DNA from: Chalara sp. BL73
Taxonomy: Eukaryota > Ascomycota > Leotiomycetes > Helotiales
Direction of reading: 5' to 3'
NCBI GenBank assembly: GCA_918026815.1
Contig: CAKJVC010000090.1
Span: forward strand, 422,998-486,997
Length of the DNA: 64,000 nt
The notes beneath the pieces are model-generated. The model had not been told where the DNA came from. It did not search any database and was given only the letters and a program-made list of their open reading frames with translations. Shown here piece by piece: positions 4,498 through 37,240 of this stretch. Position 1 is the first letter of the stretch; each line of letters opens with the position of its first letter. The position numbers and the translations under genes are program-made.

Positions 4498-6837
4498 CTT
4501 GATGGAAGGGGTGAATATTGAGGAAGGGTTGGAAGAAATTGGGAGGAGAATACTGCTAGATAAAATCCTGAATTATCAAATATGAATATGGATATATATT
4601 TCCGCTTCCACCAGGCTGTAAAATGACGACGCTTCGGGAACTAAGCCTCGTCCGCCAGCATCACGATCTCCAGATGAAGTGCGCAAGGTGAGCACCAACC
4701 ATGATATTCACGAAGCTCCGCGCGGTCCTCCTTCTGCCTTTTGATTTGGACTTTGAGGTGAAAAAAAGTCGATATCACAACGACTTTTTCCCGGCTGACC
4801 AATGACGGGTTGTTGTGTCGACGCCGCGTCGGCGGATCGGATTTAATTCCAACCTCAAGTCCGCTCGATGTCAGCAAGTTGCACCATCTCGCCCATAATC
4901 AAACCATTGATTAATCATAGGTTCCAATCTGATATCACCGTACTATATCTTACGCATTACTTCTTATAAGGCCATACATAGTTGAAGTTGAAGTGGGGCG
5001 TCTCAATAGACGCGTGTTTTGTCCATCCCTCCAATCCTCAATCCCCCAATTTGTACATTGTTCTGTTACTCGTAGTTCGGCTTCGTATCCTCTTGTTATT
5101 ATGTTCTTGCTTTGGTTATTGCTAACAAACTTACAAGAGAGCTTTCATGCTTTTTTTTTAAAAAAAAGGGGGGTTATTTGAACTTGCTAGAAACGTGCTC
5201 TTCGTTCGGAGCATCCGCTGTGTTCTAATCTCGCGGACGCAGACCTGAGATCTCTCTAGATGAATATTTTACTAGATTTCTATTACTCAGGGCTTTTTAA
5301 CCTTACACTTTTAGTATATAGTGTTATATGTATCAGGAATACCAAGCATGATATCCATTGTATGACCTCCACTCTCTTAAGACCTTAATGCGGCTCAGCC
5401 AAAATGCATCAACAGGGCTGGGATGGCATGCATGGAGGTTCGTTTGACCATGAATATATCGTTGGGCAGGAGGATAGAATGGAATCAAAACATGTAGCAA
5501 CAGATGCAGCTAACTCTCGTTCCTATGCACATCTTGCATTGATGCACGTAACGATCTTCAGACTTCCTCAACTATACGGCCCCAGTTTCTAAAATGCCAA
5601 CATTTGAATACAAAGTTATCTCTAGCGTAATCGTGCTCAAGGCGAATTTGAAGCTGTTTGGGATGTCTCCACTGTTGGCAGCTTGTCCTGATGCCCATCT
5701 CCTCGACCAACCGACGCACGAGAGGATATAGAGGATGGCCTATACAAGGTCGAAAAACTAGACATTTGGTCTAGCCTTCTGTCACCAACCTGCCCGGCTA
5801 AGGTGATGCCATTCACGTAAAGTTAGCTACGAATAGAGGCTACGTCTAGTGATTTATCATATCCTTTGTGTAAGCCACACGAAAGTTAATACAAGGCACT
5901 GCCTTTTAGTTTATGCAATGATGATTTTCTCCGTCCATGTAAACTTTTAGAGAACATCATTATTGTGCATTTTGCGTCATTTTTCACTCGCCTTTAACAT
6001 TAGCACCATTGTAGGATTATTTGATAGTGTGTACCCACATCTGACAGATATGAGTTGCTTGAGCTTTGAGTAGAGCTGGAAAGTCTTTCCACCACTCTAT
6101 CTAGTCTATGGAAACTTCGAAGGCTGCAATGCTGCGACTGCCTGGAGTGAATTCCCTTCAGCCTTGACTGAGCGTAATGATTCTGAGTCACGAATGCTTT
6201 GAGTAGGCAACTACAAATTTCCAGCTCTACGCCTAGGCTCAAGGCTAGATACAACTTCCTCTCGGGCACCCTTCAGCCTTATACTCTTAGAGCAGCAACA
6301 CTCAGCATTATTTTTAGGCATATTTTAAATTATGGGGCAAAACTCCGCCAAGGTTGAAGCTCAAAACGGAGCACTGTTTTTGAATATCGACATATCGTAT
6401 AACATATTTCAAAAGTTACACTTTCTCCCTTCACTGAAGATATTCTAGGCATGATAAATGCTGACTTATAGAGATTGCTTTGGAACGTTTAGATAACGGA
6501 GATAACCGACGTCCGGCGATTTGGGACAAAATGCCACAATGGGCAGACTGGCTGTGGTGTCATATCGGTTATCCTTCGAAGTACGACAATTACATTAGGT
6601 ATCTTGTTGAATTGGGTGCAAAGTCAAAAAGCTTCAACGCTTGGCTCCGTCGTGTGTTTCTTCTCTCTTGAACACTTAACGCAGCCATTGCCCCAGTTGT
6701 GTATAATTATGCCGATTTAAGAAAGCGATCACTCCCTATTCCCGATCACATTCAGGTGGTAGTATTCGCAACACGAATCTTACGACTCCGAGACTAAATT
6801 TTGTATCCAGACAGCTGTTCAGAGGTATACCACAAAA
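4498..6837. other. Long AT-rich interval without a supportable gene
   Basis: This stretch holds only short, unrelated open frames. It includes a homopolymer-rich spot at about 5150-5172 (T run, A run, G run). The first 300 bases are the promoter side of the Rossmann gene. I see no transposon ends, tRNA or conserved protein signal. Confidence 0.4.
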
Positions 6838-8133
6838 ATGGTCGCCCCATTTCTTCAGACTGAAGCTTTCAACTGCCTCATTGCCCGCTGCAGGTGCAGC
6901 AAACTCAAGGAACTATGGTCGGTTAAAAAAAGACCATGATAATACCCTATCTAAAGCGCACATTGAAGGCCGACGCTATTTTAACAGCTGGACTTGTGAG
7001 CACATGGCTGAGAAGGAAAGACAACTTTGCGCGACCATATACAAGAATATTTTAATGAATTATACTCGTAATGTGTCCTTGAAAGCAACCAAAAGTTTTT
7101 TTTTAATAAAAATTACCGTCAGCTTAGATGGGAGAGATGTGGAAAGCAAAATAAAACATCGAAATGTGTGGACGAAGGACGGAAATATAACTCGCGTAGT
7201 TGAGAAGGTCACCATTGATCTTCAAGACAGTGGAGATTTTTACGTTCTTCTGCCATTCGGCCATCGGCTACCTGCTATGGACACACTTGAATTTTCTACT
7301 GACTATAACTGGAGCGCCCATTCCAAAGAAGATATCAGTTTACTCTGGGATTTTCTTGCCTCCGTCACCTTTATTAAGATCGCCGGAGCACTATGCGCTG
7401 CCTGGAGACCGTAAGTTTCAGTCAGCTTGCCAATCTGGAGACCATATTTCTCCAAGTGTGGGAAACATATGAAGATGAGATAGCTTATCGGCGCGGGCTT
7501 TTACGCCGGCTAGTGAAACGCCTCATCGAAGTCACCGATTTTAAACTATTTACCGTCGATCACATGAAGATTTGTCCTCCAGAGACTCTGGTAATTATGG
7601 GGAAACCTCTTCGCCGGCTGATGGTTCGGTCAGGGAATCCCATGAATGAGACTGTAATTACCTTCTCAGAACTGCGTGTGCTCCACTAAGGTTGCTTTAA
7701 CTTGGAATATCTTGAAATAAACCTCTCCTTATGCCCGTATGAAGACGGTAGTTCTCATAAGCTAGGAGAAGAATGCGAGCTGAAAAAGTTCTTACTCTTC
7801 TCTCACACTTCTCCAATCTGAAAGAGCTGTCACTACAGTCTATGTTCCAAGGAACAAACTACTGACCCAGATTACGACTACACCGTGATTGTTATTAAGG
7901 AATGATACAATACCGAAATTGGATTTCCTTTCGAAAGCATCGCCGTCGTTTTGGACTCCCGTAAGCTGCTACCGAACTGGTACAAACTGCTTGGAAGAGT
8001 TAAAGATTGGTCTTGGGATCGACACTCCTGCTCAAGAATGGATGATGGTTGTCAAGTGAAAGTTTGGATAACGTCAGGGTATGGCAGGATTAGTGAGGTG
8101 TTGGAGGCATGGGAGTATTATTCTCCTGAATAG
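6838..8133 (+). pseudogene. Decayed leucine-rich (F-box/LRR-like) gene
   Basis: An ATG at 6838 opens a frame with leucine-rich character (the segment CRCSKLKELW) that stops near 6935 at an A run. A different frame then runs open to 7414, and a third, starting near 7393 (LETVSFSQLANLETIFLQVW), continues to 7689. About 7770-7860 contains another leucine-rich piece (VLTLLSHFSNLKELSL), and 7951-8133 holds a last open piece. The spacing of leucines and the LxxLxxL pattern resemble fungal F-box/LRR proteins. No single intron arrangement I tried joins the pieces, so I read it as a frame-broken remnant. The family assignment is weak; it could also be a diverged species-specific gene with unusual introns. 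Confidence 0.35.
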
Positions 8134-9293
8134 GACGATGTTGTTAGAGACGACAGGGTGGGCGAGAGGATACACCGTCAACACACGTAATCATTAAGCA
8201 GTCGGTGAGTTTTGTCAAGCCAAATAAGAATATCAAATAACGATAAAGAGAGATCTATGATTAATTGCATACCTTGTGGAACATATCAAGTCATGTTTCT
8301 GTATCTTGAGGATTCAAAAGCTGGATAATGGTATAATTCACAAGATCAATCGACTGATATAGCTCGAAAAGCCGAAATTGCTATTTTTTCGGTATATTTG
8401 AGGCAGTGAGTGATGACTTTAGCCTCTCTATTGCTATAATGATGCTTGGGTGCCTCACGTGTTGCATCACGTGCCACATATCAGCAATTTTGGAATGCTT
8501 TTTACTCATCACCCATTGCTGAGATACATCCATGTATCGACATGCGGTCGAAGGAGCATTTGCATCATCTTGCATGCCATCTTGTTTTCTTCAACTTCTC
8601 CTTCCCAATCATCCCATCGGCCACTGCATGGAACTGAGGCTATGAATGTTTTGCCTTCAAGGTCGTGGGACTGATCGATGCATTCCTTCCTGTGATGATC
8701 ATTTTAGCCAGAGTCAAATGCCTTGCACAATGCTTTACTTTCAAACAAATTCCGAGTCTCTCAATCTATTCTGCTTAAGCCTAAACAACAAGAAGCTCCG
8801 AAACAATTGGCGGGTGCCAAGCGGCATACCGTTCACTCATATGAACACCAATTGTGACACCGATTTGCATATCCTGGTGCGAGGATTTCACCTCCAGATC
8901 CCGGACGCTCGATTGGAAGATTATCTCAAGTCTGTCCAGTCGCTGTTGGGAGACCCTGTTGATGGATGGGGTGCTAGCCGAGGCAGTTGAGACGGTCTGG
9001 GTTTCTGACAGCCAAACCTGAAACGAATCAACCGATTTCCGTTGCTTTAAACCTTTATTGGTTATCTTGGCCTCAAACATTGAGACAAAGATTTCAAGGA
9101 TGGCCATGTTAACAGTTGGGCCGTGCTTAACCTTATATTGACCACCATGGCTATATTCTGAATCTTTCAATATCACCAGCGTGACAATCCTTGACCTTCT
9201 AGAGTCCAGTCTTGACGACAGGATAGGTTCCTTCCTTACAACATATCTTCTTGTATATTAAATTTTTTACTACGCCTTTTCAATCATTTCAAA
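8134..9293. other. Intergenic; two opposing uncertain open frames
   Basis: A plus-strand frame (8646-8990) and a minus-strand frame (8781-9176) overlap head to head. Neither has recognisable motifs, and the minus one has no ATG at its upstream end. I cannot support either as a gene. The last 100 or so bases are the 5' side of the SET-domain gene. Confidence 0.35.
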
Positions 9294-15539: not shown

Positions 15540-18010
15540 TTATTCGCCAAACGCGTTCAGCATAACAGTAGAAAGCTTTAACGCGGCCGCGACTCGCCCC
15601 TTCTCCAGGTCATGCTCTACTCGGGCGTCGAACAGCCGCCAGGGCTGGATGAGCATGTGCTTGTCGACATCTTTGCCGGCCATGGTCTCTCGAAAGACCT
15701 CGCGCATGCCCTCATAGGTGTGGATGCGTGCTACGCACTTCTCGCTCAACTCCGGCAGGAGTGGCCGCTGCCGGCAGAACTCGAGCACCAGCGCGGCGAT
15801 CGAGGCTGCCACGGGCACGGCAAACGACGTGCCTGAGAGGATCCGTTGCGGCGCACCCGCTAATGTTGCGGGCCACGCGCCGGGAATGGCTTCACCTAGG
15901 AAAGTAAGGTTGTCGTCGCGGGTTCCCATCGGCGGGTTATAGGTCGAGGCCCAGCCGTCGCCCGAGGCGGAGTTGATGCAGAAGACGGAGTTCATGCGAG
16001 CAGGGAAAGCTGGACGGTCCTCCCGCGCGCCTGTGTTGGCCGCAGCTGCGAAGATGAGGATAGGAGGTTTCGCCTCGACGCATGTCTTGATAGCTGCCTC
16101 GATCTGAGGTTTGTATTTGCGATATCCAAAGGACATGGAGAGGATATCGACCTTCCACTCTGTCCTCGCGTGGTGGATTGCCTCCACGATGGCGGACACT
16201 CCTGACTCACTGACGTCTTCTTCATCTTTGAACACTCTCGCGACGTACAGGTGTGCCCACGGCGCCATCTTGAGCAATACCGAGGCGATGTGCGTGCCAT
16301 GGCCACAGACGTCGCCAGTAAATGGGTCGTTAGCAACCCAACTGCGGCAGGCCACGATGCGGGCCTTCGACTTGGCGAGCCTGGGATGTTCCAGATCGAC
16401 GCCCGTATCAAGGACGGCAATTCGGACCCGCGAGTCATCTTGTCTCCGTCGCCCCTTGAGCAGCGTCAGCGTCCGGCTCGTGTACGATGCGAGCCAATCC
16501 CTAGTCTTAGCGGCGACGTGACCTTCAGTGTCGCTCGATCGTGTATCGAAGAGGGAGGCGCTGTCTCGCGTCCGCGATGTCAAGTCCTGGGAGTCATTAA
16601 TGTCGCTGTCTATTTCTGTATCGGTCTGCTCCACATCTTCCGCTGGGGAAGCTGAACTTGGACTGCCGCGCGAAGCCGGCGCCTGAGAGACTTAGCCGCG
16701 GTTCTAGAAAGAAGGATCGTAGAAAAGCATACCTGGTCAATTGGGTGCGCTAGTGGAAACCCTTGGGTATTCGTCCTACCCGAGCTCAAATGGTTCTTGT
16801 TCGATGTGTCATCATCGGTATCCATAACTGAGTTATCTGGCTGATTTTCTGCCCTTCCTGAAATATGGTGTACCTTGCCACCTTCTACGGACATATCGGC
16901 CGTCAGGATCAGTGGAGGATCTAGCGGTGACAGAGTTGTTTCGAGCTTGGGCACAGCCACAGGAATGTTGGTTATGGAGTCACTGAACTGTACTTTGTTT
17001 TTGTGGCTCTTGTCTGCCGAGTTGGAGCCTTCCTGCTGAGGTATTGCGGGCCTCCAGCAAGGGGACCGCGAGGCACTGTCTTCTGATACCAGATGCGGGC
17101 TCTGGCCTGGTAAATTTCGATTCACGAATCTGGGATGGCACACATATGTTGTGGCCACCAGAATTTTCCGTAGGACTCCGGTAGAGGATATAGATGTGCC
17201 CTTAAGCGCTTTGGAAACGCAGATTGGATCTGCATTATTTTCATATGCGTGCTTCAGAGCAGCGATATGAGCAAAGATGGTCTTGGCGTCCCTGAGCCAA
17301 GCTCGTTCCCCATCAGCTTCGTCGTCGAGCATCCGCGTCAGATAAAGTTCAAGGAGGGCTTCTATACTGTCTACCTGCTCATGGAAGTAACTTAAGAGCT
17401 CTGAATTGTCTGTCGAGGACAACATACGCCGGTTCTCGAGCTGTAACTTGTGTAACATATCTTTGGCAGCTCGGTGAAGGTCTTCGATGCCAACCTGAGA
17501 TTGCCATTTGTCCGTGGAGAAGACTGCAGCAAGACGAATATATCTGTCGTACAGCTTCTCAGACAATCCTGCGTCAGGTCCGCAGAAATACTCTTCCAAT
17601 GTGGAGGAAGGCTCTGTTGGAAGCTCTGTGGCCACGCCTGATCCTGGTGATGAGTGCTGAGCAATAAAGCTGTTGACTTTAATTGAGGTGCCGAGCCTCC
17701 CATGCCCTCGGGAGAACAAACCGTCAAACTTGTCCAACAAGCAGAAAAAGATATTTGTTTGGGGTAGTGATATCGGATCTGGTGTATTTCGGCTATCTTT
17801 CAGATCTCCCTGCATCTCAAGGATCTCTGTGTGCGTAAGAGAGCTGATATGCTCGCTATTTAGAATATCAGTTATGAGACTTTCCGCCTTGCTTCTCTCA
17901 AACCACATCCCTAGAGGAGTTCGAAAAGGGGGATTGGTTGCTGTAGGCTCGTGTCCCAGTTCAAGCCTTAGCCCCTGGTTAAGATATCCGACTGGCGTCC
18001 TGGCATCCAT
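15540..18010 (-). CDS. Subtilisin-like S8 serine protease with long N-terminal region (HET-Q2-like candidate)
   Basis: Minus-strand exons are 16733-18010 and 15540-16682, separated by a 50-bp intron (GTATGC..CAG), giving 806 residues from the ATG at 18010. Residues 1-426 are a helical, cysteine-poor region of unknown fold with no secretion signal. The peptidase S8 domain follows: the Asp site in AVLDTGVDLEHP (about 515), the His site in CGHGTHIAS (about 553), an oxyanion Asn in AAAANTGA and the Ser site in SGTSFAVP (about 709). The triad is complete, so an active intracellular protease is expected. The open frame continues upstream to 18184 and may begin in a further exon. It is divergent to the gasdermin-like gene at 19067. 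In Podospora a subtilisin-like protease, HET-Q2, cleaves the gasdermin HET-Q1 encoded beside it, so a similar role here is my inference. Confidence 0.85.
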
Positions 18011-19066
18011 TACCGACCGCTGGGGAGGCCACTCCTGAGTTTCGACCTGTGCTGGTGTTACCCTTTGAGGTGAAAGTTGAGTGTGGTACTGTCTCTGGGT
18101 ACTTCCTGCCCGAAAATTCGGCGCCTGGGCTCTATCAGCGGCTGTGCCCTCAACATCGTGCGGCCCATACGATGAGCTGATCACCTAGCGATCGGATATT
18201 CCTTTTGCAGCTGGAACAGTGTTACCCTCTGAGAAGGGTGACCCTGACCTCTTGTTTCGAAGATGTATGTATTTGGGTACAAGCTATTGTCACTCCGTCG
18301 TCATACGAACCCAAGGTTATGACAGAGGAACCGGGGAGTGGGGCGGGAAGGGTGCTACGGGCTGACATGCCCCTTTACTGATGGTTCTGTCACAGCAACA
18401 AGTGGATGGAGTTTAAGACTGTTCCGTTGTACTTTTCGTAATAGTACAAAGCAGATGGAAGAGGTTCTTAGGGGAACCCAACCATATGGGTTGTGACACG
18501 TGACGCCATCAGCATTAGTCAGTCAAAAAAGAGAAGGGTCGCCGTGTGTGACACAATCCGATCCGGTATACAACTTCGAGCAGTAAATCACGGGGGTTCA
18601 CGGGATCAAACGGGACAAAAACTACCCCTTAGGTTTACCTGTATAACCACAATTATTACCCCTCTAGTCCTCTCCAGTACTTTTTTCTTAGGGATCTTTT
18701 GGGGCAGTGTCTCTGTCACAATCGTGATATTTTACCATATCTGCAGCTGAGTTGCACAGCCTCAGAGGCTGCCGGCTTGCATTTTCCTCTGTTGGAGCTG
18801 AACTACACAGCCTCAAATTTCCTCCACCTGGAGTTTTGGCTGAGACTCCTGATAATCTTATCAACAGCCTGATTTGTACCTCATGCAGCTTTTGAGACTA
18901 TTCCATTATTCTATCATTGGTCGATATCTCTTCATCCTTCTCGTGGTAAGAGTTTCTTCTCTACCTCGTAGTATTACATTCTTTAACTTTCATTGATTAT
19001 GGATGCAGCTACTTAACCACCCACTTATCCAACCTTTTTTCGATCTTAATAACCGTCATTCCTGAC
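18011..19066. promoter_or_regulatory. Shared divergent intergenic region of protease and gasdermin-like genes
   Basis: About 1.05 kb separate the starts of the minus-strand S8 protease and the plus-strand gasdermin-like gene, so both promoters lie here. A possible upstream protease exon may occupy part of 18,011-18,370; the frame is open to 18184, where a CTAG acceptor-like site precedes it on the minus strand. Specific binding sites cannot be named. Confidence 0.5.
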
Positions 19067-19930
19067 ATGAAGGCGAAGAAAACGTACTTCCTCGTGCAAG
19101 CCGGCAGCTCATCAGGAGTCAGCTCCATAGTCCTGGGGAATGTCATCTTGGACCCTGCGCTGCCTGAAGAGGCCGTCAATCAGGGGTCCATCCTTTTCCC
19201 GCAGTCGATCCCCATCTCCTACAGTATCCCGCTGAAGAACTGGCGATGGAGAAAGGCTCCTTCGTCTAAGATTAGCGGCGGTATCTTCGCGCATTTCGTC
19301 GGCGTCATTGAAGGCGAGATCAGCGCGCATAGGGACAATAAAACCACACAGGAGTACTTTTGTAAAGAGCTCGAGACGCAGAGTTTTCAGATCACGGAAG
19401 AGTACATCAACATCATCAAAGCGCTGCCCGAGGTGCAGGCCAAGATCCTCCAGCGCGAGAGCCTGTACATTATCACTGGTGTCAAGGTCGCTAAGGGTGC
19501 CACGGTCAATGAACAGGCGTTCAAAAGCCTGGGCTTCCGGCTCGCGGCCACAGTTGATTTGACGGTGTTAGGAGGGGACCCTATCAAGGTCGGTCCGAAG
19601 GTGGAGGCCGACAACACGGTCCCCGAAAGGCTCGAATACAATGTTGACGAGGATTTTGTCTTTGCATATCGACTCGAAGAGATATTCTACCGCTGGAAAG
19701 AAGTCCGACACCGTGGATTTGAAAAGGAAGGTGATTTGCACGGCCTTCCTACAAAGAACCTTGACGAGGATGTTGAGGATGATGAGGAGGACACTATCGA
19801 TAACTTCGACTTTGATAAGCCTGGAGACCACGATATACCTGTTTCGATAATTAAAGGGAGGCAGACCGAGCCTGTTCAGGATGAGGATGGTGAGAAATAT
19901 GATGTTGTCTGGATTGATACCCGCGAGTGA
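19067..19930 (+). CDS. Fungal gasdermin-like protein (HET-Q1/RCD-1 type candidate)
   Basis: A single exon of 287 residues begins at an ATG with no signal peptide. Gasdermins are pore-forming executioners of regulated cell death; fungal members are about 250-290 residues and lack the large mammalian inhibitory domain. Features I recognise as family-like are the N-terminal KTYFLVQ strand, a central YIITGVKVAKGA strand (residues 134-145) and DFVFAYRL (196-203), followed by a basic segment. The last 65 or so residues are very acidic (DEDVEDDEEDTIDNFDF) and end in a short tail, which fits a removable C-terminal regulatory piece. The strongest support is context: an intact S8 protease lies divergently next to it, and a NACHT gene follows 428 bp downstream, tail to tail. 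Assignment is by eye; an unrelated beta-rich protein is the alternative. Confidence 0.7.
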   Translation: MKAKKTYFLVQAGSSSGVSSIVLGNVILDPALPEEAVNQGSILFPQSIPISYSIPLKNWRWRKAPSSKISGGIFAHFVGVIEGEISAHRDNKTTQEYFCKELETQSFQITEEYINIIKALPEVQAKILQRESLYIITGVKVAKGATVNEQAFKSLGFRLAATVDLTVLGGDPIKVGPKVEADNTVPERLEYNVDEDFVFAYRLEEIFYRWKEVRHRGFEKEGDLHGLPTKNLDEDVEDDEEDTIDNFDFDKPGDHDIPVSIIKGRQTEPVQDEDGEKYDVVWIDTRE

Positions 19931-20358
19931 ATCATCTTGGGTAACGAACAAATGCAATATCAACTTATTTTCTGGCTAATTAGTGCCAATCAAGGGTGAT
20001 TGCCGTTGAGACCGGAGGCGGGGAACGCAGCTGCTCGCCATTTCCCTTCCAAACGGCTGGCTCAGCATCTCTCAAGAACATATCAGTACTACAGAAGTAC
20101 GGAAAGTTTTAATTATGACATATGCAGCAACTTAGCGAGAGACGTGTCTAATTAAACATGATAATAACCATTTCAGATACCGCCTTACATTGATGTTAAA
20201 AGTTTGGATATCATTCAAGATACACTAAGCGACAGTCGATAAAATGCTGAACTTATTCGGGTTCTGAAACCCAAACCCACTATTCTATCCCCTTTGCACT
20301 TTCTTTTCTGCTATAAGATGTTCGAAGTAATCCCGAATTCTCATTGCATCGGTGTTGA
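19931..20358. other. Convergent intergenic region
   Basis: The gasdermin-like gene and the NACHT gene point at each other across 428 bp. I see no gene here, only the expected 3' ends. Confidence 0.5.
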
Positions 20359-23300
20359 CTACCACCTCCGGTTGACGCGCGCCCAGGGGTCCAACCTCTC
20401 CGATGAGCTACATTCGTCTGAGAACAGCTGCCCAACAAGCTTCCATGCGGGTTCCCCTCCAGCCGTTGAGCAGAAATCCAGATCCACGCCTTTGTTGATG
20501 AATCTGCCAAGAAGCTTTGCGAAAAGGTTTGCGAATCCCTCTGGCCCTAAGTCGCGATGAAAGCTCTGCTTGGTTCGTGAAGCTCCTCCTGCTGCTACAT
20601 AGGAGACCATAAGGCTCCATGCGCTGTCTTTGCCAACAATCGGCTTATTGAGATCCGTACACTTCGCTTGGAGGAGCTGAATGGCGATATTCACCCACCT
20701 CGGCCGCAGTACTACCTGCCGGTCCAGGTACATCGCCGCCTCGCTGGTGAGACTACCGTTGAACTCGGTGGTTTGAAGATCCCACGGCGGGGATCCAATG
20801 TACCGCAGCGAGTTGAAGAGAAGTAGTGTGGTATCCATCGCATTGGCATTCGGTCCACCTGCGAGCTCATTCACCAGATAGTCCTCAAGTCCATGAAATA
20901 GTGCAACCGAGGAAAAGTCGATAGGATCAAGGATATTGAGCCTCTGCGGATCAACTGCGTAGCCTCTTGCCCAGTGACCTTGATTGCTACAAGCCCCCAA
21001 GCGCGAGAAGCATTTCATGATGCCTGCCCAATGAGTCGAAAGCACCGTGTCGAGCTGCTTTAGGTGTTCTGGCGGAATGGGCTCTCCCGAATCTTCTGCT
21101 ATCGAAGCGTAGATAAGTGCTCGGTCTAGCATATGCCAAAGGGTGCTTATTTCTGTGTCGATCCCTCGGGGTATCTGGAGCGTCTTGCACATGATGACGC
21201 AGGAGCGGAAGAGCTCTGGACATGGGTTATACTTCGGGTTTGCAGTAAGACTCATTAATTCTTTCCACACCTCTGGCAGTCGGAGAAACTCAACCACGGT
21301 TCGATGAATGAAGTCAACGTAGTAGGAGGAAATAGGCGCCTGGTTTATACCACTGATGCGGTTTGTCTGCAACTCGCGGCTCTCAATGAGTCCGCAACTC
21401 CTGCTGCGGATACGGCTACTGATCTGATCGCATTTGTCTCTAAGGTGATCAGGGTTAAGAGGGCTCATCGGTAAAGATACAACTGTCTCCGATTCGTCAT
21501 CACAAAATGACAGTTGGATGACTAAAGGATACCCTAAGGATGAATGTACCTGCTGCGCCTTCAGCAGTAGCTGGAACAGCTCAGATGCCTGCTGCTGGTA
21601 TCTGGGTTGGAGGTTCCGGATAATGTGGTCGTATAAATCCTTCAGGTTGGATGGTAGCTCGTTTAGGCGATCCATCATCTCCCTCATGGAGTCTCCGTCT
21701 CTAAGTCCGTCTTGTAACGATCGAACAACCAGAACAACCCATAAAAAGACTCCATATGACCTATTGGTGATCTCATCAATCAGAGCTGCCCACTGAGCTC
21801 CATACTTTCTCTTCAGCCTTCCAGACAAGTGATCTCCGGCATACTTCTGGATGTCACCCTTAGTGAGGTCTTGCAAGCGCAAGCTCGGACAGTGTGAGAA
21901 CGACTCCTCGGAAAGGGGAGTCGGTCGGCTGGATAGAAGAATCTTGACATTCTTGTTCTCAACAATGTCGTTTATCAACTTTATCAACTCTTGGCCATCG
22001 CCTTCAAATTCATCAATACCATCAATAGTAAGGAAGAATTTTAGTGATGTGGTTGCCTCGCTCAACACCTTCTGAATCCATCGTTTTAAATCGCCTAGAG
22101 CAAGCTGCTCTAGGTTTGTTCCCGTCGAAAGACGCGCAGCCATTTGCCAAAGATCTGGCATGGCGACAGATATCAACCCTCGCTGCTGCTTGAGTATCTC
22201 GTACAGCAGGCCACGGAGCAAGCCGATCGACGACTTCTGTAGCGGTGATCCCAGGTTCCAAAAAAAGAACGAGGCTTTAATAGGAGTGATACCTGCCCAT
22301 TTCTCGAGGGCGACACTAGTCCGTTCGTCCTGAGTGATGAACTTCATCAGCGTCGACTTTCCGGAACCTGGCTTGCCGTTGATGTAATAGCAGCCGGTGC
22401 CGCTCTCTAGCCACTCAACAAATGGAGCCCAGGGCTTCTCAGCGTTAGGAGGGCAAAAAATCCACTCATACGTTTCCTGGTGGTTAGGCTGTACCGCTTC
22501 GAGCCGTTCGTAGAATTGACGGAAATACAGACTGTCGAGCACCACGTCTTGTATATACTTAAAGTTTTCGACTGTATGTGTAGAATCTACGTCTCGCAGC
22601 GTTACGATTTTCTGCTGCTTGCTGTAGGAATGGCTCGTACCTACCCCTTCCCTAGTCATGAACCTAGTCTCCCCGTTCTGGAAGGTTATGGCGGCAGCTA
22701 TGGTGTATTCACGCCAGGGTATAGGCACGGGATTGGCGGGAACCTGATTCTCGCCCACTTCATATTGTGGCTTCTCATTTTGACTATTTGATGAATCCAG
22801 GGGGTCCTCAAAAACGGCCATGATTTCTACAATCTTGCCGTAACTGCGATAGCCATTGCCGAATCCTACACTCTGCTCCTGTTCTATAACACTTATTCGA
22901 ACGGTTAGCTCGGATAGTGTGTTTCTCACAACCATTTTTGCATAGCCATTGAGCGTGGTGAGCAGGCATTCAATTTCGGGCTTTTTCCAATATTCCTTGA
23001 CCTTTCTAATCCGTAGATAGAGGTAGGCGTTGATATTTTCGATAACGGCGTCTGTAGCGATCTTGTAGAAAATGTATCTTAACTTACTGGCGGCTTCGTA
23101 GCAATTCTCGACCAATCTAACTATATCCTACATAAACGTGAGTATGCAGCGAGCATTCATAACCATTGCGCAGACAGCATACCTTCTGATTCTGAGAAGA
23201 ATTCAGGTCCACTTCAACACGCTGCATGCTCCTGAAAAGGGCCGAGAACATGAGAAAATGAATGTTCTTCTCAACAAACATCCCTTTGTAGAAACCGTCG

Positions 23301-23404
23301 GATTTTTTTTCGTCAAGCCCGTTGACAATTTGGCACACTTTACCCGCATACTGGATAAAATACAGCATGACCGCTGCAAAGCCGATATCAGATAGTGGTT
23401 CCAT
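20359..23404 (-). CDS. NACHT NLR-type NTPase (STAND family), 2 exons
   Basis: Minus-strand exons 23183-23404 and 20359-23127 flank a 55-bp intron (GTATGC..TAG); joined they encode 996 residues from the ATG at 23404. The N-terminus (MEPLSDIGFAAVMLYFIQYA) resembles the helical N-terminal domains common on fungal STAND proteins. The NACHT domain shows Walker A GKPGSGKST (about 321-329) and Walker B FFLTIDGIDEFEGD (about 438), followed by an LSSRP sensor-like motif. A winged-helix-like region with YYVDFIHRTVVEFL follows, as in fungal NACHT proteins with a DUF7791-type domain. I see no ankyrin, WD40 or TPR repeats at the C-terminus, so the ligand-sensing part is either absent or unfamiliar. Such proteins act in self/non-self recognition. 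It neighbours the protease and gasdermin-like genes. Confidence 0.88.
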
Positions 23405-24012
23405 GGCTTCGGTGTGGCTTTACTCGACTAGGGTTTTGTATATGCGGTCAAGGTGCGCAATAATTACCTAAAATACGATCTTAATTTCGAAGAGGAATCG
23501 TAGCTGGCTGATACAAATTTGATGACTGTCTAGCAAGCCTACAGAGGTAGAGTCCTAAGAAGTCCTCACCGAGAGTCATGGTACATTTTGAAATGGGAGG
23601 GCTCAGCCAGTCACAGCAGCCCATACGGCCCCGAACCCCTGAAAGTCTGTACCACCTAACTCGCCACGTAGCCATAAAGCCGTCCAGTCAATATCCGCAT
23701 TGCACCTGACGCCTCGTCGAGGCAGCTGGCAATCAGCCACATGGCTTAGACTGGTAGTATCAACCTACCTTACCGAATTAGTTTACGGTTCATCGATGTG
23801 CATTATGGAACCCTATGCAGAATCCCTCTTGGCGTGCCCCATCTGGCCCGCCATATAACCTTTATTAGGGGATACAATAGCGCACTTGCAATGCCGATCA
23901 ATGGTGAGTCCCTTTGAGGCTGGGGCCACCATTGTTGTGGCTGAGTCGTTCTGCCTGTAAAACCATGTTGGTCAAATTTATAAGATTCCAGGCTGTATCG
24001 CAAGTTAGCTCA
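23405..24012. other. Unique left flank of the tandem duplication
   Basis: This holds the promoter side of the NACHT gene and then the unique sequence that ends where the duplicated block begins at 24013. I see no gene and no target-site duplication or terminal repeat at the boundary. Confidence 0.5.
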
Positions 24013-24197
24013 CTTGCGCTACAAAACATTTTCGCGAGAAGATAAGCAACGAGCAGTGTATGATGACATCCCTACAACCAGCAGAATGGCGAAACGCCAG
24101 GCATGTCCCAGAAATGCCCCAGATGCCTGACCCAACAGACCGTGACGCGGTGTGAGCCTTCATTTGCCTGCGCCTTGAGTGCGCTCTGCTCACATCG

Positions 24198-25809
24198 ATG
24201 AATAGATGGCAATATATAGAAATCGGTCTCAATCGCATTATTTTTGAACCTGCCTGGGGTATTGATATTCAATCACTTGTAGGGCTGTATACGTAAGTTC
24301 GATTGTTAAGATCTTTAGCTCCCCACCGTAGATTCCATATAGTAACGTATAAAGGACTGTGCATAATTCCTGTGCATCACAGAGAGCGGCTGGAGCCCAT
24401 CGCGGAAGTGCGTGTATGTGGAACTTTGCAAACATTTTCAGATTCTTTGTTGACAGATGGACAGATACTGGAGCTCACCTGCTAGGCGAAGATCTTTATA
24501 TATCTTTGACAAACTACCTTCACCAGTACCTTGATATCCTGGAAACAACGTTTTAAATCACTCTGTGGTCAATCTCTCCTAGATTGCTATCTCGAAGAGT
24601 ATGCCCAGTTTACTAACTCCGCCCAAATCATACACTACATATTCCGATACCTCAACCGCCACTGGATCAAGCGCGAAATTGATGAGGGAAAGTCAGTATA
24701 CGACATTTACACCTTACACCTCATCCTCTGGCATAGCGAGTTCTTCCAGGAGATCTCATGCGACCTGGTGAATGCGATTTCAGAGCTAGTGGAGAAGTAC
24801 CACGATGGTAAGGTTATCGAGCATGGTAACAGCAAAGCTTTAATCGAGTTTGTTGTCTCGCTTGGGCTTGACGCCACAAATTCGCCCCAGACCATTTCAG
24901 ATTCCTACGGAAGCATTCTTGAGATTCCCTTGCGTAAGGCCATAATATCCTCTTCCGAGATGAGATTACCTCAATTCCATTACGAGGAATCTATTCCTAA
25001 TTACAAAGATGAACCGGCTCGCACGGAGGTGGAAGAACGGCTCGTTACTCTTACGCTGTGCTCCAAATTTACGCAGCCGCTCATTCATGCCTGCGACAAT
25101 ACTGGCATGGTCAAGTTGGTTACAAAAGACTTGGCTGTTGTCGAGGTTGGTAAGTAGCCACCAGAAACGCCGTCCGGCTGTAGCTAGCCTCTAACGCTTA
25201 TTTAGAACAAAATACTGCCGAGTGTTCTTTTGTTATCAAGCATCTGTGTGCATACTTTGGCAGGAAAATAATTGAAAATGAATTCATTGCTCTCCCAAAC
25301 GTGAGCTGTCCTTGCCTCCCACACTAGGACACAGGTAGTCCTCAAGCTTATCACTCACAGGTAAATGAGGCAACCCTTCGTCATGTCCTCAGGTGGTGTG
25401 ATCACCACAAAGACGACCCCGATAACGCCTTCACCAATATTCGCACCAATATTGATGAATGGGACGAAAAATACATGCAGGTTGATCAAGAAGCTCTGCT
25501 AGATATCGTTCTTGTAAGTGTTTTCTTGTCTCGAAACACATGTTTACCCCCATGAGCTCCCCCCACCCCGCTTCTTCCCTTTTTCTCTTCTCTTTCGTAT
25601 TCTTTCCTTCGTGTTTTGTAAGGCTAAATTAAGTACGACAGGCCGCCAATTACCTAGACATTAAAGCACTCTTAAATTTGGGCTGTGGAGCTATTGCGAA
25701 AATGATAATGGAGTGCGATCCTGATGATATCCGGAAGACGTTCAACATTATTAATGACTTTACACCTGAGGAAGAGGAACAAATTCGTCGGGAAAATGAT
25801 TGGGCATAA
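24198..25809 (+). pseudogene. CUL1-SKP1 fusion gene, copy A (one frameshift)
   Basis: Same gene as the intact copy at 44037-45645. Exons are 24198-24292, 24355-25149, 25206-25300, 25361-25513 and 25642-25809. The cullin N-terminal motifs ([23 protein letters not shown]) run in the same exon into SKP1-like sequence ([11 protein letters not shown]), and the later exons carry the SKP1 signature ([33 protein letters not shown]). Copy A has one extra G near 24,541 compared with copy B, which shifts the frame and creates a stop at about 24,556. Whether this is a real mutation or a base-calling error is undecided; the rest of the gene is well conserved. Only 185 bp upstream of the start belong to the duplicated block, so its distal promoter is the unique left flank. 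Confidence 0.75.
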
Positions 25810-27500
25810 GGTCGGTAATAATTTAGTCGTCATCTTTGCGGACGATCTTGTGTGGGCTGCTGCAAGATTCCCATGTCTTATAATACCCCCCTCGTTTCAT
25901 GGAAGGCATTTGTTATGGGACTTCTCAGTGGAAATTGAACAATGTTAAATCCATCGCCTTATAATTTTTAGAACTTCAATGATATTTCATTATATATATT
26001 GGTCTGGGTTACTAACGAGCACAGGTAGATCGCTTATATTGACTTCAACTCTAAATTTCTAGGCTGTGATGAGTAGGTTTCCCTGAGGGCTATCAGATTT
26101 ACTACTATATGGTTATGAGCGGGGTATATGATTGAATATTTGCAGGCTGTTGAGCTACAGCCCTTGTATTTATATCTGTATTTGGATCTATTGGTGAGAG
26201 TGCTAGTTTTCTAGTTGGGCATTCGTCGGTTCCTTTATTTCAAGATGAGCCACCCTACCAACGGAGGGCCGTGTTCCATGGAGAATTGAGGAGTTTGTTG
26301 GGTATAATGATTGTAGATATCGATGTGACATAAATTCGACTGGTAATATGATACTAGCAAACTGTTTATGCAATTATTTGTGTTCTTCCTTGCATTGGAG
26401 ATGGGCTCGTTCTTATGGGATATCTCCTTTCTAGACTTGGACTTGTTATAAGCTAAAATATGTTTAACCATATAGTTAACTTTGATGCCGCACTATGGAC
26501 CGGCCAATGAAAAGGTGGTATTAATGATGATTTGGAGGAGGATTTTTAAGAGGTAGATATGCAGCATGCACTTCGAGTCTGGTTAGATTCGGTATGTGAT
26601 TATATTAACACGTATTGGATGCTCTGAGACAATAGTCCTTGGGATTTGCTGTGTTGTACGGATATTCGGTGTTTTCGGAGGGCTAGCTGAGTAACTTGAT
26701 TGGCTCGTGGCTCCCTGGCAGTAGCGAGGATTTCCGAATCAAAACAAAAATAATCCATATCGCGGGTAAGTGCGTGTAACGGAACTGTCAAAGTAAAAGG
26801 CGGACAATGCATTTAAAGAGCCAAAGATGCAAGCAGGAATGGTGCACAACTTAAAGTAGAAAGGCCAGAGTGAGTAATTTGGGACCCATCCCGCAAGGCA
26901 GAATGTTAAAATGAGTGACATTTTCCAATCTACAATAAGGTTTACAACAGAGTGAATCAAAAGGTCTAACCTTAAGTGGCGTGTTTTTAATGACGCTTGA
27001 TCGGGGCTGAGTCGATAGATTTGTTGTAAAAAGTGTGTTGTTGGAAAGTTGTTGGCTTTGTTTGCATATATTTTGTGTGTAATAGAATATGGGGTTAGAA
27101 AAGAATGAGTAGTAACCACGCAAAGGTATCCTGAAAATCTGTTCCAATATCTATCTACTTGTTGGATTGTCAGGAATATGCTTTACAAAATAATATTTAC
27201 ACATTAATAAAGGTCAAGGATCACGTTTATTCAACAGGAAAATTAGTATTTTCCTATATCATTTCAAGGGAGATCCTCCATAAATAGAGCTTTGCGAATC
27301 ATATAAACACAAGAGTGTATTAACATTATAATCTGCATCCACTCACAGAGCCCGCCACTAACAAATTCGGAGCAAAAAGATTGGATCGCGCTTGTGCTCA
27401 GCAGCATGCCCTTGTAATAACTAAAAACAACACAAAAATGCTTGATTGACTGCAAAACGCGCCGCCGAAACTTACGCTATTTATCTTCACAAAATGCCGT
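25810..27500. other. AT-rich interval in copy A, no supportable gene
   Basis: About 1.7 kb lie between the fusion gene and the NLR remnant. The minus-strand frames at 26739-27147 overlap each other and show no motifs. The AT-richness would fit decayed sequence, but I cannot identify a parent element. Confidence 0.4.
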
Positions 27501-27518
27501 TGTTTTTTCTGCGATCCT

Positions 27519-30330
27519 CTATTTGATTTTTTTGTAGCCTGAATAAGCTCTAGCAAGCAAGTGCCGAGAAGCTAATCGATCAGGGTGTTCTTTGGCCAAC
27601 GTTTTTTTTTCTATTGCAACCGCATTGTTTAGCAACGTGATCGCTTGCTTTGTTTGTCCATCATACAAGTAAGCTCTAGCAAGCTCATGCTCAGAGGCTA
27701 AGCGATCAGGATGCTCTTCAGGGAATTGACTTTTTGTCCAACTGTAACATACTTCAAAATACCTAACAGCTTCCGTGATCCGTCCATCTACTAGCAGACA
27801 TTGCCCAATCCGAAGCGCAAGCTCGTACTTTTCTTCTATATCAACATTTGTATTATTATAGAGCACAGCAGAAGCATGTGGGAGGTAATCTCTCCACAAG
27901 CTGTGATTTTCATATTCACTTGATGGAAACACCGCCTCCAGATGACAGATTGCTTTCTCCATCGTCTTTGTCGCAAGTCTTTCTTGTTCAATCCATATTC
28001 GCGTTGCTAATTGAACCAAGCTGTGCATATCAAAGGTCTCGTCACTTCGTTTAACTAAAAAAGAGAACCCTCGCAGCGTGCCGATTGCATTCATCATCTC
28101 TTCATTGGAACCTAACCTCGGTAGCAAAGATTGCGGTATGGCTTTTGGCTCGATGCAAGACCTAAATGATAGTAAGTCTGCAGCAGCGCTATCGCATTTT
28201 CGGATTTGTTCAAAAGATACGAGCCAGGTCGTTACTACGGCGTTCAGCGAGCCTTTATATCGCGTATTATCGGGAAACTGTCTGTTTAACAAACGTACCA
28301 TATCTTGTTCTGTACCTCTTAACAATCCTAAGTATTCTGCAATCGAAATCTGGTTTCTGTTCAAATAAGCAGCCGCTTGCGTGATTGCCAAGGGAAGGTG
28401 AGTGAGCTCGCTGAGGAATTTCTTTGTTGACACGCTGTCGCGGAGCAGGTCCTTTCGAAATATCGACGTCTCCAATAAGCTTTCTGCCTCTTGTTGACTC
28501 ATCTCATTCAACTCAACCATGCCGCTTACCTGAAAATCTACTGCTACATCGCGATACCGTGTAGTAAACAAAATCAGGCCACTCTCGCTGTCCGGAATAT
28601 AGTCAACAATGCCCACACGAGTGTCTGAAGTTCCCCGAAGCATGTCTACATCGTCGGCATTGTCCACAATGAGGAGCCATCGTCCGGCTTCCTCCGAGCT
28701 TAAGTATTGTTGAACTGATTGCATAAGATTGGCATTGTTTTCTCTGCGAATACAAAGCTTTTTGCCATTTCCGTATATGTCTGTTCAAAACTCGCATGGC
28801 TTATTGCCGGCACCCAAAGATAGAGAAGTTCGGCTTGTTCTCTTTTACCCAGTACGCAAAATTTAGGGCGATTTGCGTCTTACCAACTCCGCCTAGTCCT
28901 ATAATAGCAACTTTTGACACTCCTGTATAAAAAACATTCGTTTCAACGTGTCTAGTATCTTCTCTCGGCCGATAAATCGTTTGTTCCTAGGGAGTGAGAT
29001 GTGAAAGGAAGGCAGAACAGCACGTTCTTTATTAGTGTTAGCAGCCATTACACAGTACATTTCAGCTTCTCGTACACTAACTTTGAGATGCCCCGTCAGG
29101 TTCGCTTGCACTTGTTGCCGCTTGTGTCGCAGTAAGAGTTGTCGTGGGTCGCTCCTCTCGCGGCCCGTTTCTATCTTGATCAAGCTCCATACTGCGCATA
29201 AAGAGTCTGAGAACGCCAACGATGGCGCGATATCGTGGGTCTGTTCGATCGCTGCATCTTGCCATCTGCATATGATTTGCGTCGATGCTTTCGACCGTTT
29301 CGAGGGAACTCGGCAGATCAAGCTTTGAGGAAAAGTCGCCTACCACCTATTATCATGAATAGGTCAATACTAATCGAACAAGGTACAGCTCAGCTCCAAT
29401 ATCCTACCTTGTTATGCAGCCCTTTCATGCCCGATATTCCTCGTGCCTCCTGAAATGAATGGATTTTAATTCGAGAATGGTCTGCTATAGTCTTGAACTC
29501 TTCGTGGATATTGTCTAGAATCTCGCTGTGAACCTCAAGTGTCGTGATGATGCCTTTGTTCGAATCTTGCAGAGCTAGGCGGGCAAAATTGGACGCAATC
29601 TCGCCCCATGGGGCAGATCTACTCCTCGATGCGGCGTGCCCAGAAACACGATGGATTTCGTGCGTGCACGGCAAGCATTCGATCGGCGGATTGCCTATGG
29701 CCGTATCAGCATCGGCTACCATGATTCTAAGATTGCTGCAACCCACGTCTTTGACGATAATGCCGCCAAGACTGTGTACTACAAATATGATCGGATCCTA
29801 ATGTTGTCAATCTAAGCATATTGCTAGGATACTGTAGCTGTTTATGCGCTTACTTCATTCTCGATTTCCCGCTCAACACGGACGGCCAGGTCCCGGCCAT
29901 GCTGCGATACGCTGTTCTGGTTATTCGCCTGAAAAAGCCCACCGATCACGTCCGCATTATAGCCGTACGTCCATACCCTTGCCTTGGGGAGATCTTCTAT
30001 AAGGAAATCTTCAGGCCAAAACACCTTGGCAGATTCGTCTACGCTTGTTTTGTTGTTGGTAGTCGAGGTTGACGACTTGTGCTTGAAGAAGGATATGATA
30101 TTTCGTTTGCTTCGTTTCGCGGGTTCTGCATTGTTGCTAATCGCATCCTGGCTGTTGTCCTCCCACGTGTGTCTTGGATGTCCCCTCAAGCCATGTACGA
30201 AGAGGATGCTTGCATCAATTAGTTTGAGAGGATTTGCATTGGAATTGATCTCGCACTTAGCTCGGTACGGCCCGTCTCCAGCACTGTCAGTACTAGTAAG
30301 TTCCGTAAAGCCAATACGATGGATCAGCAT
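27519..30330 (-). pseudogene. Alpha/beta-hydrolase-NB-ARC-TPR NLR-type gene, decayed, copy A
   Basis: Read on the minus strand from the ATG at 30330: an alpha/beta-hydrolase domain (ILFVHGLRGHPRHTW, then an intron, then FVVHSLGGIIVKD with the nucleophile Ser), a linker, an NB-ARC domain with the P-loop GLGGVGKTQ and LLIVDNADDVD, and C-terminal TPR units of about 42 residues sharing EHPDRLAS..LARAY. This is a classic fungal NLR architecture. The frame is broken repeatedly: two stops within a frame between the hydrolase Ser site and the LGTPHRGS segment, a shift before the P-loop (T run at about 28,930), one between NFSIF and WVPA, and one at an A run upstream of 28,724. Most are shared with copy B, but a missing C at about 29,626 is private to A. 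The TPR array ends after about three units, short for the family. Confidence 0.8.
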
Positions 30331-31175
30331 GTCTGAGCTAGCCCACTATGATAATAGTGGAGCCGCCATCGCAAGTGGGGAGGAAGCTTGAAACTCGACA
30401 GTGGAGATGAATGACGATAACCTTACTTATCGTCTTGACACAAGATGGCTAAATTTACCAAGGTTCTCAGCATTGGTGCCTGAGGCTGAAATGGACAACA
30501 GGCCAAATGTAGTTGGCATCATATCAGTGATGAAGGGGTACCTGAGGAATGGAGTTTGTAGCGCTTCTAGAACGGCTTGACTGACCAGGGGTTGAGGTTG
30601 CGGAGAGGCGATTCCTGGTTGAGTAATCAGGAGGGAATCCAATACCATTTGTAAAGATGAGGCTACAATCCTGTGATTACTCTGGTACCTGTGCAAGTCG
30701 GCCGAAAAGTATCCGGTAGTCATCTGGAGATGATCGGAAATTCTTTATCAGTCATGCATTATGGCTTGACATGCACATAAGCCGGTTGGGTGAATTTGAT
30801 TCTGCCATTATGTTCCACAAACTGGTTGATATCACCTTTGCTAGACGTTCCTTGAAGTTTGATTCGGCACACAACACCAACTAATTTCGATGCATACACC
30901 CAAAAGACAGAAACCGTTCTGTTTCACCAATTGACAGAAGTCAATAGCAGAGGCTTGTACCCTGACTCCTAGCCATCTCATGATATCGTCGTCCAAAAGC
31001 TCTACCCGAAACAGGGGCCATGCCAAACTGAAGGAAACTAACCGATTTCGGCCCCCAGTTTTTCTCATCTTTCGCCCTTGACAGAGAGTCGAATTCTGTT
31101 ACCCTCGAGGTAGCGTCCTCTCTCTCTCTCTCTCAAAATAATAATCACAATCTGCCGCTATGTCAATGAATAATC
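30331..31175. other. Interval in copy A with uncertain small open frames
   Basis: A minus-strand 98-residue frame at 30427-30723 starts with ATG, but copy B breaks it with a one-base deletion. Another at 30841-31068 shows no motif. Neither is supported as a gene. A short CT repeat lies at about 31,118-31,133, just before the amidohydrolase remnant. Confidence 0.35.
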
Positions 31176-32153
31176 GAGAAATATCGCCCTGATATTCGTT
31201 CATTTGTCGATATCTACAAAGACATCCACCAGTATCCTGGACTCTCATGTTTTGAGTCGCGCACGGCATCTGTGGTGAAATTGGACTTGATGTCATGACT
31301 TGTATTGGAGGACATGGAGTGGCAGGTGTCTTGAGGAACGGACCTGGGAAGACTACCTCTCTTCGTGCTGAGCTGGATGCGTTGCTGATTGAAGAAAAGA
31401 CTGGTTTGTCATACGCAAGCAAAGAATGAATGAGGGATGTGGCTGGCCGAGAACAACCAGTCATGCACGCCTGCGGCTACGATATCCGCACTGCGTGTGT
31501 TCCGGCTACTGTGCAACTGTTGCACTCAGCCGCGAAGGAATGGCCTGGTACCATCCTTGCAATCCTTCAGCCTAATGAAGAGATTCCTGGAGGAGCTCAA
31601 GCGATGATCGGCGATGGCCTTTACGAAATCTGTCCGTTCCACACATCGTGCTTGCGCAACACGTTGGAATGTCGAAGGCAGGTTTGGTCGCCGTGAGAAC
31701 AGGACCCGTTTTACCAGCCTCTGATTACATTGATATATTAATCGTTAGTGAGGGCATTAGCTCGAATCCGCCAGAGTGCCCTGAGCCCGTGAGCCTCTGT
31801 AGTTACCTAATAACGAGGTTTCAAAGAATTGTGAGCAGCGAGATAGATAGCAGCGAGTTTGTAACACTGGTTTGCCGCGAGTTTCATGCCGACGAGCCAG
31901 GTGCTCTGGGTCTCGCCTATGGACACACCTGTGGAAGAGTTTTCAATTCTTGGAGGAACATCCCCAGTCCCTTTTGTGTATTGGAAGCTGGGAAGGACGG
32001 ATCCTGCGAGAAGGGACGAAGCAGAGAAGAAAAAAAGGGAATATCCTTGAATATCTTCCAACAAACCAACCTCCCGAGTCTGCGCCAGCAGCAGAACTTA
32101 CCATCTCAACCGGGACGGAGGCGATGGCGTTGGCAACCTTGATATTTTTGTGA
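31176..32153 (+). pseudogene. M20D amidohydrolase/peptidase remnant, copy A
   Basis: Pieces of an M20D aminoacylase/amidohydrolase follow each other in several frames: IYKDIHQYPGLSCFESRTAS, then GGHGVAGVLRNGPGKTTSLR, LDALLIEEKTGLSYASK (in-frame TGA at about 31,427), VMHACGYDIRTA, ILQPNEEIPGGAQAM, and later NPPECPEPVSLCSYLITRF, CREFHADEPGAL and a C-terminal GTEAMALATLIFL. Functional family members carry a metal-binding HACGHDxH motif; here it reads HACGYDIR, so two ligand-type histidines are gone. A central part of the dimerisation domain also seems deleted (about 31,920). Together with the stops and frame changes this is a dead gene. The 3' half lies in the block that copy B lacks. Confidence 0.8.
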
Positions 32154-32361
32154 TTTCTGCGCAACAGCGGAGATATCTTTCGATGCCCCCACAGCTGGCT
32201 AAAAGCGCTTTCTATTTTCTTTAACCGCGATGAGCACCGGGCGGGGGCTGAGGTCACCGATATTTATACCAATAGCTTGCTTTTCATTTCAACGATATAG
32301 TTAACTATAAATGACAAATTTTGTGCGCATAATGAACAAGTTTTCAAACGATATTCATATT
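31736..32361. other. Block in copy A not homologous to the matching place in copy B
   Basis: The copies align up to TTGATA and again from TAAGGCGACTCTCC. Between these points copy A has 626 bp, carrying the 3' half of the amidohydrolase remnant and about 200 bp of AT-rich sequence. Copy B has 818 bp of unrelated sequence (51,558-52,375). Copy A therefore appears to keep the ancestral arrangement at its left side. Confidence 0.75.
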
Positions 32362-33064
32362 TAAGGCGACTCTCCTGTACTGTAATGTATATGTAAGTAC
32401 TGTACAGCACAGCACAGACTGATGTGTGTAGCCCCTACTTAACTTATTTGACAATAAACTATGAGCCCCCTCGTATCCCTCCTTAAATGCTTATTTGACA
32501 CAACCTCCATCCACTTCTCCTCCCTCAACAACTCACAGTTCACTTTTTGCTTTTTGTCCCACTGTTGCTGCCTTTCGGTGATTCTAGTCTTGGTAGTCTG
32601 GTGTGTCTGTGACTTATCGTCGACAACCGTGTGGTATCTTGGGTACAGCGTCTCAACACCTTGTCAGATCTTATCAACCTCCTGGGTACTTATGTTGCAG
32701 TCCGCAAAGTTCGACCCTGCAAAAGATAACCACAATTGATTAATGTGTTCTCCAATAAGCTATCACCAAACAGATAGGCTTTGGCACCGTTCTAGTTCAA
32801 CCGCACAAACCCGTCAAAGCACCGAGCAATCCAAAATAGTGCCAATTCACAGCCCTTGGACGACAACCCTTCATCTCGCTCAGAGTTGTTTGTAAGCTCT
32901 GTGTTGAATTGTGTTCACCATCGTGATATATTTCTTCACAGAGCTCTTAAGTTTCGGGTTATCTGCCATCCGAATCAGCATTCTCCGCAGACTCTGGTTT
33001 ATATACTTCACCGTAAGTGCTTCCAACCAAGCTAGCTCAGTCACCTCTATCAATTATCCTCAAT
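32362..33064. promoter_or_regulatory. Upstream region of the low-complexity protein gene, copy A
   Basis: An open frame at 32461-32739 starts with ATG but encodes a Cys/Ser/Leu-rich product without motifs; pyrimidine-rich sequence like this is usual for fungal promoters and 5' UTRs. A GTACTGTACAGCACAGCACAG segment lies near 32,398-32,418. I do not support a gene here. Confidence 0.35.
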
Positions 33065-36613: not shown

Positions 36614-37240
36614 CACGTTCTCTATGAGGCCGGCTAAGTTTTGACTAGTATTTCGTAGTGCTGATTCGATTCAGATAATCCCAGATGAGACCTATCGATA
36701 AGACATGAAGAATCGGCACTGCTCAAATGAATGAAATAGACGTAGCTCTATACCTTGACGAATTGGCCATGGAGTTTAGATTTGTGTGGTAGACATGGGG
36801 CAAGGTAAATACTCGTAATCAAGGGAGCCTAGATGTCTAATATCAAGAGATTCGCTCAACCCAATTGAGAACTGCTAGCGCAAGCTCTAGCACTGAAAGC
36901 TGGATCAGGTCGTAAATTCACCTCGTGACTTGGATATTGGAGGTACCGTAAATATACCGACAAAAGCTGGGACGGTTTTAGAACAATTAAATGCCAAGCC
37001 TTTACGTTGTGGCTAGCGGCTAGATGCGGGGCTTGCGGCCGCAATAGCTCAACCCCACGATATTTTATTTCTGTGTCACAACGTCTGACACGCTCAATCG
37101 TTCTAGATCGATGTCTGTTATGTCTCTGCTGGTTCCTTTTCGTAATTGGGATTGTTGAATAGCCTATCCTCTAGAAGCTTATGGTTCAAGGTACTAAAGC
37201 TCGTGGACTTGAACAACACAAGTAAAATTTACAAAACGAA
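36614..37240. promoter_or_regulatory. Divergent promoter region, PSMD5-like and Rpc31-like genes, copy A
   Basis: The two genes start about 630 bp apart and face away from each other. Only short frames lie between. No specific sites are assigned. Confidence 0.45.

Follow-up and report, generated by a model that had tools for sequence, protein, structure and literature searches.

A conserved NACHT gene beside an S8 protease-gasdermin pair in Chalara sp. BL73: a candidate three-gene cell-death unit

Around 80% of fungal gasdermin genes are reported to cluster with protease genes, and 60-63% with genes for S8 (subtilisin-like) proteases (PMC10197012; PMC10989679), which is described in the same sources as the commonest arrangement. 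In Podospora anserina, the S8 protease HET-Q2 is reported to cut the 278-residue gasdermin HET-Q1 at Phe238, with the loss of 40 residues (PMC10989679; PMC12881547); a CHAT protease is reported at an Aspergillus het locus (PMC11138114). Some gasdermin-linked proteases are NLRs that carry the protease as their N-terminal domain, and two- or three-gene clusters are often described (PMC12881547; PMC9815663). A sensor or repeat domain is annotated in roughly a third of the HET-Q2-like proteases (Q2Ls) and is not universal (PMC10197012); the control and the trigger stimuli of the gasdermin-activating proteases are presented as an open question (PMC12881547). Here we describe a locus from the helotialean fungus Chalara sp. 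BL73 in which a gasdermin gene on the forward strand lies between an S8 protease gene and a NACHT gene, both on the reverse strand. The three genes occupy positions 15540-23404 of the window, the 64,000-nucleotide stretch at 422998-486997 of contig C84 in a 58.66 Mb assembly of 199 contigs. The S8-gasdermin pair is of a documented kind, while the conserved, separate NACHT receptor-like protein is the newer part. From homology and linkage we favour, with moderate confidence, the view that these genes form a co-inherited regulated-cell-death unit consisting of a gasdermin, its S8 activator and an upstream NACHT protein.

The product of the single-exon middle gene had been read as a fungal gasdermin in a first-pass annotation made from the sequence, which proposed profile and structure searches as a check, and both searches bear this reading out. 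Fourteen relatives of 238-299 residues were found, and comparison of the family profile with the PDB matched RCD-1-1 (E-value 6e-15), RCD-1-2 (6.3e-13), HET-Q1 (3.9e-11) and the bacterial gasdermin bGSDM (0.0015). The structure search recovered the gasdermin fold, and RCD-1 of Neurospora crassa is the best match by structure as well as by profile; RCD-1 differs from the system proposed here in that it is described as activated by the pairing of allelic variants and not by a protease (PMC12881547). An acidic C-terminal tail with the motif DNFxFD is present in 11 of the 15 aligned sequences, comprising all 11 close members, that of the window included, and none of the four distant ones. Phe247 of this motif lies 40 residues from the end of the 287-residue protein, as does Phe238 in the slightly shorter HET-Q1, and Phe249 lies 38 residues (4.4 kDa) from it. 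By analogy, the NFxF motif at Phe247 is predicted as the most likely site of cleavage by the S8 protease.

The protease gene is transcribed divergently from the gasdermin gene at a distance of 1,056 bp, which lies within the 10 kb used to assign a protease to the Q2L class, and the intervening sequence is possibly a shared promoter. Its catalytic triad is complete, and the LDTG, GHGTH and SGTS blocks are invariant in an alignment of the protein with four relatives. The first 60 or so residues contain no signal-peptide-like stretch (maximum 19-residue mean hydropathy 0.24), and a secreted subtilase is unlikely for want of a hydrophobic segment there. The intact triad, the missing secretion signal and the divergent pairing thus all stand as first annotated. 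The N-terminal 426 residues gave no Pfam family above the cut-off, sensor and repeat domains included; a structural model of this region from six sequences (with five relatives) reached a predicted local distance difference test (pLDDT) score of 36, too poor for use, with a weak hint of helices. Among the five S8 relatives found, P0015-P0018 carry the PF00082 domain and P0019 (538 residues) does not.

The pairing of S8 and gasdermin genes recurs elsewhere in the genome. At E ≤ 0.001, S8 matches number 36 in the assembly and group into 27 loci; gasdermin genes were sought genome-wide with three family members as queries, and among the 26 S8 loci outside the window 18 were surveyed at 10 kb and four (L001-L004) with flanks of about 1.5 kb. 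Three intact gasdermin genes (on contigs C84, C77 and C133) and two broken ones (C80 and C147) were found, and an S8 gene adjoins each of the intact three. The pair on C77 is convergent, with stop codons one base apart, and that on C133 is in tandem, about 0.7 kb apart; the proteases of both carry a DUF7580 domain ahead of the S8 domain, unlike that of the window. For the broken copies there was no S8 match on their contigs (E ≤ 0.001) and no tblastn match to the window's protease in their 10-kb loci. We estimate that a random spot would fall within 2 kb of an S8 locus about 0.2% of the time (27 loci in 58.66 Mb), and the adjacency of S8 and gasdermin genes exceeds chance. One might argue from the multicopy nature of these families, with their 36 S8 and many NPHP3_N matches, that the locus is a chance assembly: the three genes would then share no pathway, and the subtilase, though intracellular, would act on a substrate other than the gasdermin homologue. 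The recurrence of the linkage in paralogues and in relatives makes this very improbable.

The neighbourhoods of the other gasdermin genes vary. A frame with a HET domain adjoins the C77 pair (L029, C77:276500-286499, at 6786-7409), and a frame for a dynamin-family GTPase lies near the C133 pair (L030, C133:329000-338999, at 8751-9233). The broken copy on C147 has a HET-NACHT fusion frame at a distance of about 3 kb (L041, C147:8700-18699), and that on C80 lies near a DDE_1 transposase frame (L040, C80:168100-178099).

Linkage in relatives was read from contigs of identical size (the longest contig for each protein match), which is strong but indirect evidence for a single contig, and from locus tags in two species. 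The S8 relatives P0016, P0017 and P0018 are on contigs of 10,636, 90,585 and 29,692 bp, the sizes recorded for the gasdermin relatives P0001, P0002 and P0010; with the two paralogous pairs in the same genome, these three shared sizes uphold the linkage of the two genes. The remaining S8 relatives lie on contigs of 253,637 bp (P0015) and 7,784 bp (P0019). For the NACHT protein, six orthologues align with 92-99% of the query at 55-68% identity; the seventh match drops to 35%, and further down, among the best 120 of 1,548 matches, identity peaks at 42%, with 53% of the query covered. Four of the six orthologues are on gasdermin-sized contigs (90,585, 1,160,198, 29,692 and 42,781 bp) and the other two on contigs of 5.5 and 3.4 kb. 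Contigs of gasdermin size do not recur among the remaining 114 of the best 120 matches (of 1,548). The locus tags place NACHT and gasdermin genes close together in two further members of the Helotiales, Rhexocercosporidium (BKA65DRAFT_240002 and 240003) and Coleophoma (BP6252_13261 and 13256). Five of the close gasdermin relatives have contigs of at least 10 kb; three of these are matched by an S8 relative, four by a NACHT orthologue and two by both. Contigs as short as those of P0003-P0006 (1.8-2.2 kb) would not reveal linkage, and the contig of P0009 (5,580 bp) has neither an S8 match nor a NACHT gene among the matches listed. Searches of prokaryote and viral contigs found no relatives.

The closest relative of the protease, P0015 from Nemania sp. 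NC0429 (Xylariales; 69% identity), is possibly a solo protease, the neighbour of a gene missed in gene calling, or an idiomorph-like state. This relative, for which no gasdermin is listed, recalls the idiomorphic het-Q locus, and since het-Q1/het-Q2 and the locus described here comprise the same two protein families, one could suppose a heterokaryon-incompatibility system in which protease and gasdermin alleles meet upon strain fusion. In Chalara, however, both genes stand side by side in one genome, whereas het-Q1 and het-Q2 are described as idiomorphs (PMC12881547), and we consider an allorecognition locus improbable. The two systems differ further in that the Chalara protease has 806 residues with a long N-terminal region, against 388 reported for HET-Q2 (PMC10989679), and in the linked NACHT gene.

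The NACHT gene is convergent with the gasdermin gene and 428 bp from it, and encodes a protein of 996 residues. Its long exon contains NPHP3_N (1.8e-20), NACHT (7.6e-8) and DUF7791 (2.5e-23) matches and the P-loop GKPGSGKST. No Pfam ANK, TPR or WD40 repeat was seen in the protein at E-values up to 1, with DUF7791 in their place, and a marginal Ank match (0.074) appears in one of 11 aligned family members. The NACHT NLR that had been annotated next door is present as a gene, but with no such repeat found it is more safely called an NLR-like NACHT protein. At least 152 NPHP3_N matches occur in the genome (150 of 308 candidates scored), and with so many, adjacency in a single genome means little; conserved linkage is what counts. 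The earlier suggestion of a sensor-protease-pore module gains support on this ground, because the NACHT gene itself is co-inherited with the gasdermin; activation of the protease by the NACHT protein is a proposal suggested by the linkage. In a literature search, no title or abstract pointed to an S8-gasdermin pair accompanied by a distinct, conserved NACHT gene, and NLR-type Q2Ls are described with the protease fused in one protein (PMC10197012; PMC12881547; PMC9815663).

Several observations weigh against a three-gene unit. Single-sequence searches with the 287-residue protein gave no gasdermin match, and confidence in its structure model is low (pLDDT 53). No NACHT gene was found beside the C77 and C133 pairs: when the window's NACHT protein was compared by tblastn with twenty 10-kb loci, the one on C147 alone was matched, and none of the larger frames scanned at C77 and C133 matched NACHT, which argues that an NLR is not generally required. 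The 1,160,198- and 42,781-bp contigs are not represented among the five S8 matches, the 10,636-bp contig has no NACHT gene among the best 120 of 1,548 matches, and for the 253,637-bp Nemania contig no gasdermin is listed, nor a NACHT gene among the same best 120. A homotypic signalling domain common to the protease and the NACHT protein was sought by profile comparison of their alignments, which gave no similarity. Finally, the N-terminus of the NACHT protein (MEPLSDIGFAAVMLYFIQY...) is hydrophobic, with a 19-residue mean of 1.42 at residue 9, and shows a weak resemblance to SesA (0.0075, under the cut-off; three of 11 aligned members, that of the window included, at E up to 0.1), and may be an effector domain of its own. 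The Pfam profile SesA is described as akin to Helo_like_N and to N-termini of the MLKL type (PMC9815663), so the NACHT protein could kill alone.

This last point leads to the chief competing explanation, a standard two-gene S8-gasdermin unit, with the protease as both sensor and activator, beside an independent NACHT gene with its own HeLo-like death pathway in a neighbourhood of defence genes. Two-gene clusters are the rule in the documented cases (PMC10197012; PMC12881547; PMC10989679), the character of the NACHT N-terminus fits an independent pathway, the HET frame on C77 and the HET-NACHT frame on C147 provide immune-type neighbours at two other gasdermin loci, and NPHP3_N domains are abundant. 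Against this, it is the same NACHT orthologue, and not any NLR, that accompanies the gasdermin in all four relatives judged testable (and in four of the five close ones with contigs of at least 10 kb), which is more than we would expect of a random neighbourhood of fast-turnover genes. We therefore regard the two-gene explanation as a serious but rather unlikely alternative to a three-gene unit.

The homology and fold of the gasdermin, the intact triad of the protease and the conserved linkage of the genes are observed, and the S8 and gasdermin proteins very probably act as a cell-death pair. It is likely, with less assurance, that the NACHT gene belongs to the unit in some way; that its product is the upstream activator of the protease, as the linkage hints, is a tentative proposal. 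We suggest a model in which the gasdermin is produced full-length and self-inhibited. By homology with HET-Q2, the cytosolic protease would remove the short acidic C-terminal tail, and the released N-terminal domain would oligomerise and form pores in the plasma membrane, leading to cell death. The NACHT protein would detect non-self or damage, oligomerise and activate the protease through the N-terminal region of the latter. On a still more tentative footing, the locus may represent an 'uncontracted' pyroptosis-like pathway, with separate sensor (NACHT), protease (S8) and pore former (gasdermin) kept together in diverged relatives. Such a pathway would parallel that of the mammalian NLR inflammasome, caspase-1 and GSDMD, in which sensor, protease and gasdermin are likewise separate (PMC10197012; PMC12881547), with the differences that the protease is an S8 enzyme and not a caspase, that a short tail takes the place of the large C-terminal domain, and that the sensor is a candidate. 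If true, NLR-caspase-gasdermin signalling would have a counterpart built on a subtilisin, and the N-terminal region of the protease would be a new NLR-coupling domain. The conserved NACHT gene beside the pair provides a testable sensor candidate, together with a predicted cleavage site, and would allow the control of fungal gasdermins to be compared with that of mammalian inflammasomes.

Table 1. Coordinates of the three genes and their parts (positions in the window).
Feature	Position	Strand	Basis
S8 protease gene, Q2L type, 806 residues, two exons (18010-16733, 16682-15540)	15540..18010	-	PF00082 E 2.2e-19, gene model
S8 gene intron, 50 bp, phase 0, GT-AG	16683..16732	-	gene model
S8 catalytic domain, residues 511-727 (D518, H554, S712)	15780..16430	-	domain limits and triad
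S8 gene exon 1, 426-residue N-terminal region	16733..18010	-	no Pfam match over cut-off
S8/gasdermin intergenic region, 1,056 bp	18011..19066	.	between divergent genes
Fungal gasdermin (fGSDM), 287 residues, single exon	19067..19930	+	open frame from ATG; profile and structure matches
NFDF, residues 246-249, within DNFxFD tail motif	19802..19813	+	predicted S8 cleavage site
NACHT-DUF7791 NLR-like gene, 996 residues, two exons (20359..23127, 23183..23404)	20359..23404	-	Pfam matches, gene model
DUF7791 domain	21169..21612	-	Pfam, 2.5e-23
NPHP3_N/NACHT nucleotide-binding domain, P-loop GKPGSGKST	21925..22422	-	Pfam
NACHT gene probable intron, 55 bp, GTATGC...TTTATGTAG	23128..23182	-	picked from several frame-keeping options

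About 600 bp past the NACHT gene begins a near-identical tandem duplication of 19.8 kb (24009-43850 and 43847-63859), which stops just short of the end of C84. The copies are 99.65% identical over 7,732 columns (1 mismatch, 18 gap openings) and 99.35% identical over 11,515 columns (18 mismatches, 32 gap openings); since they differ mostly by insertions and deletions, an assembly artefact or an unpolished haplotype copy is suggested, with a very recent genuine duplication as a possible alternative. Both copies contain a reverse-strand frame (27522-28784 and 47324-48610), which in the first copy, the one scanned, contains TPR repeats (TPR_12, 1.8e-14) together with a weak, sub-threshold match to NB-ARC (0.0017), and which is possibly a further NLR-type gene.
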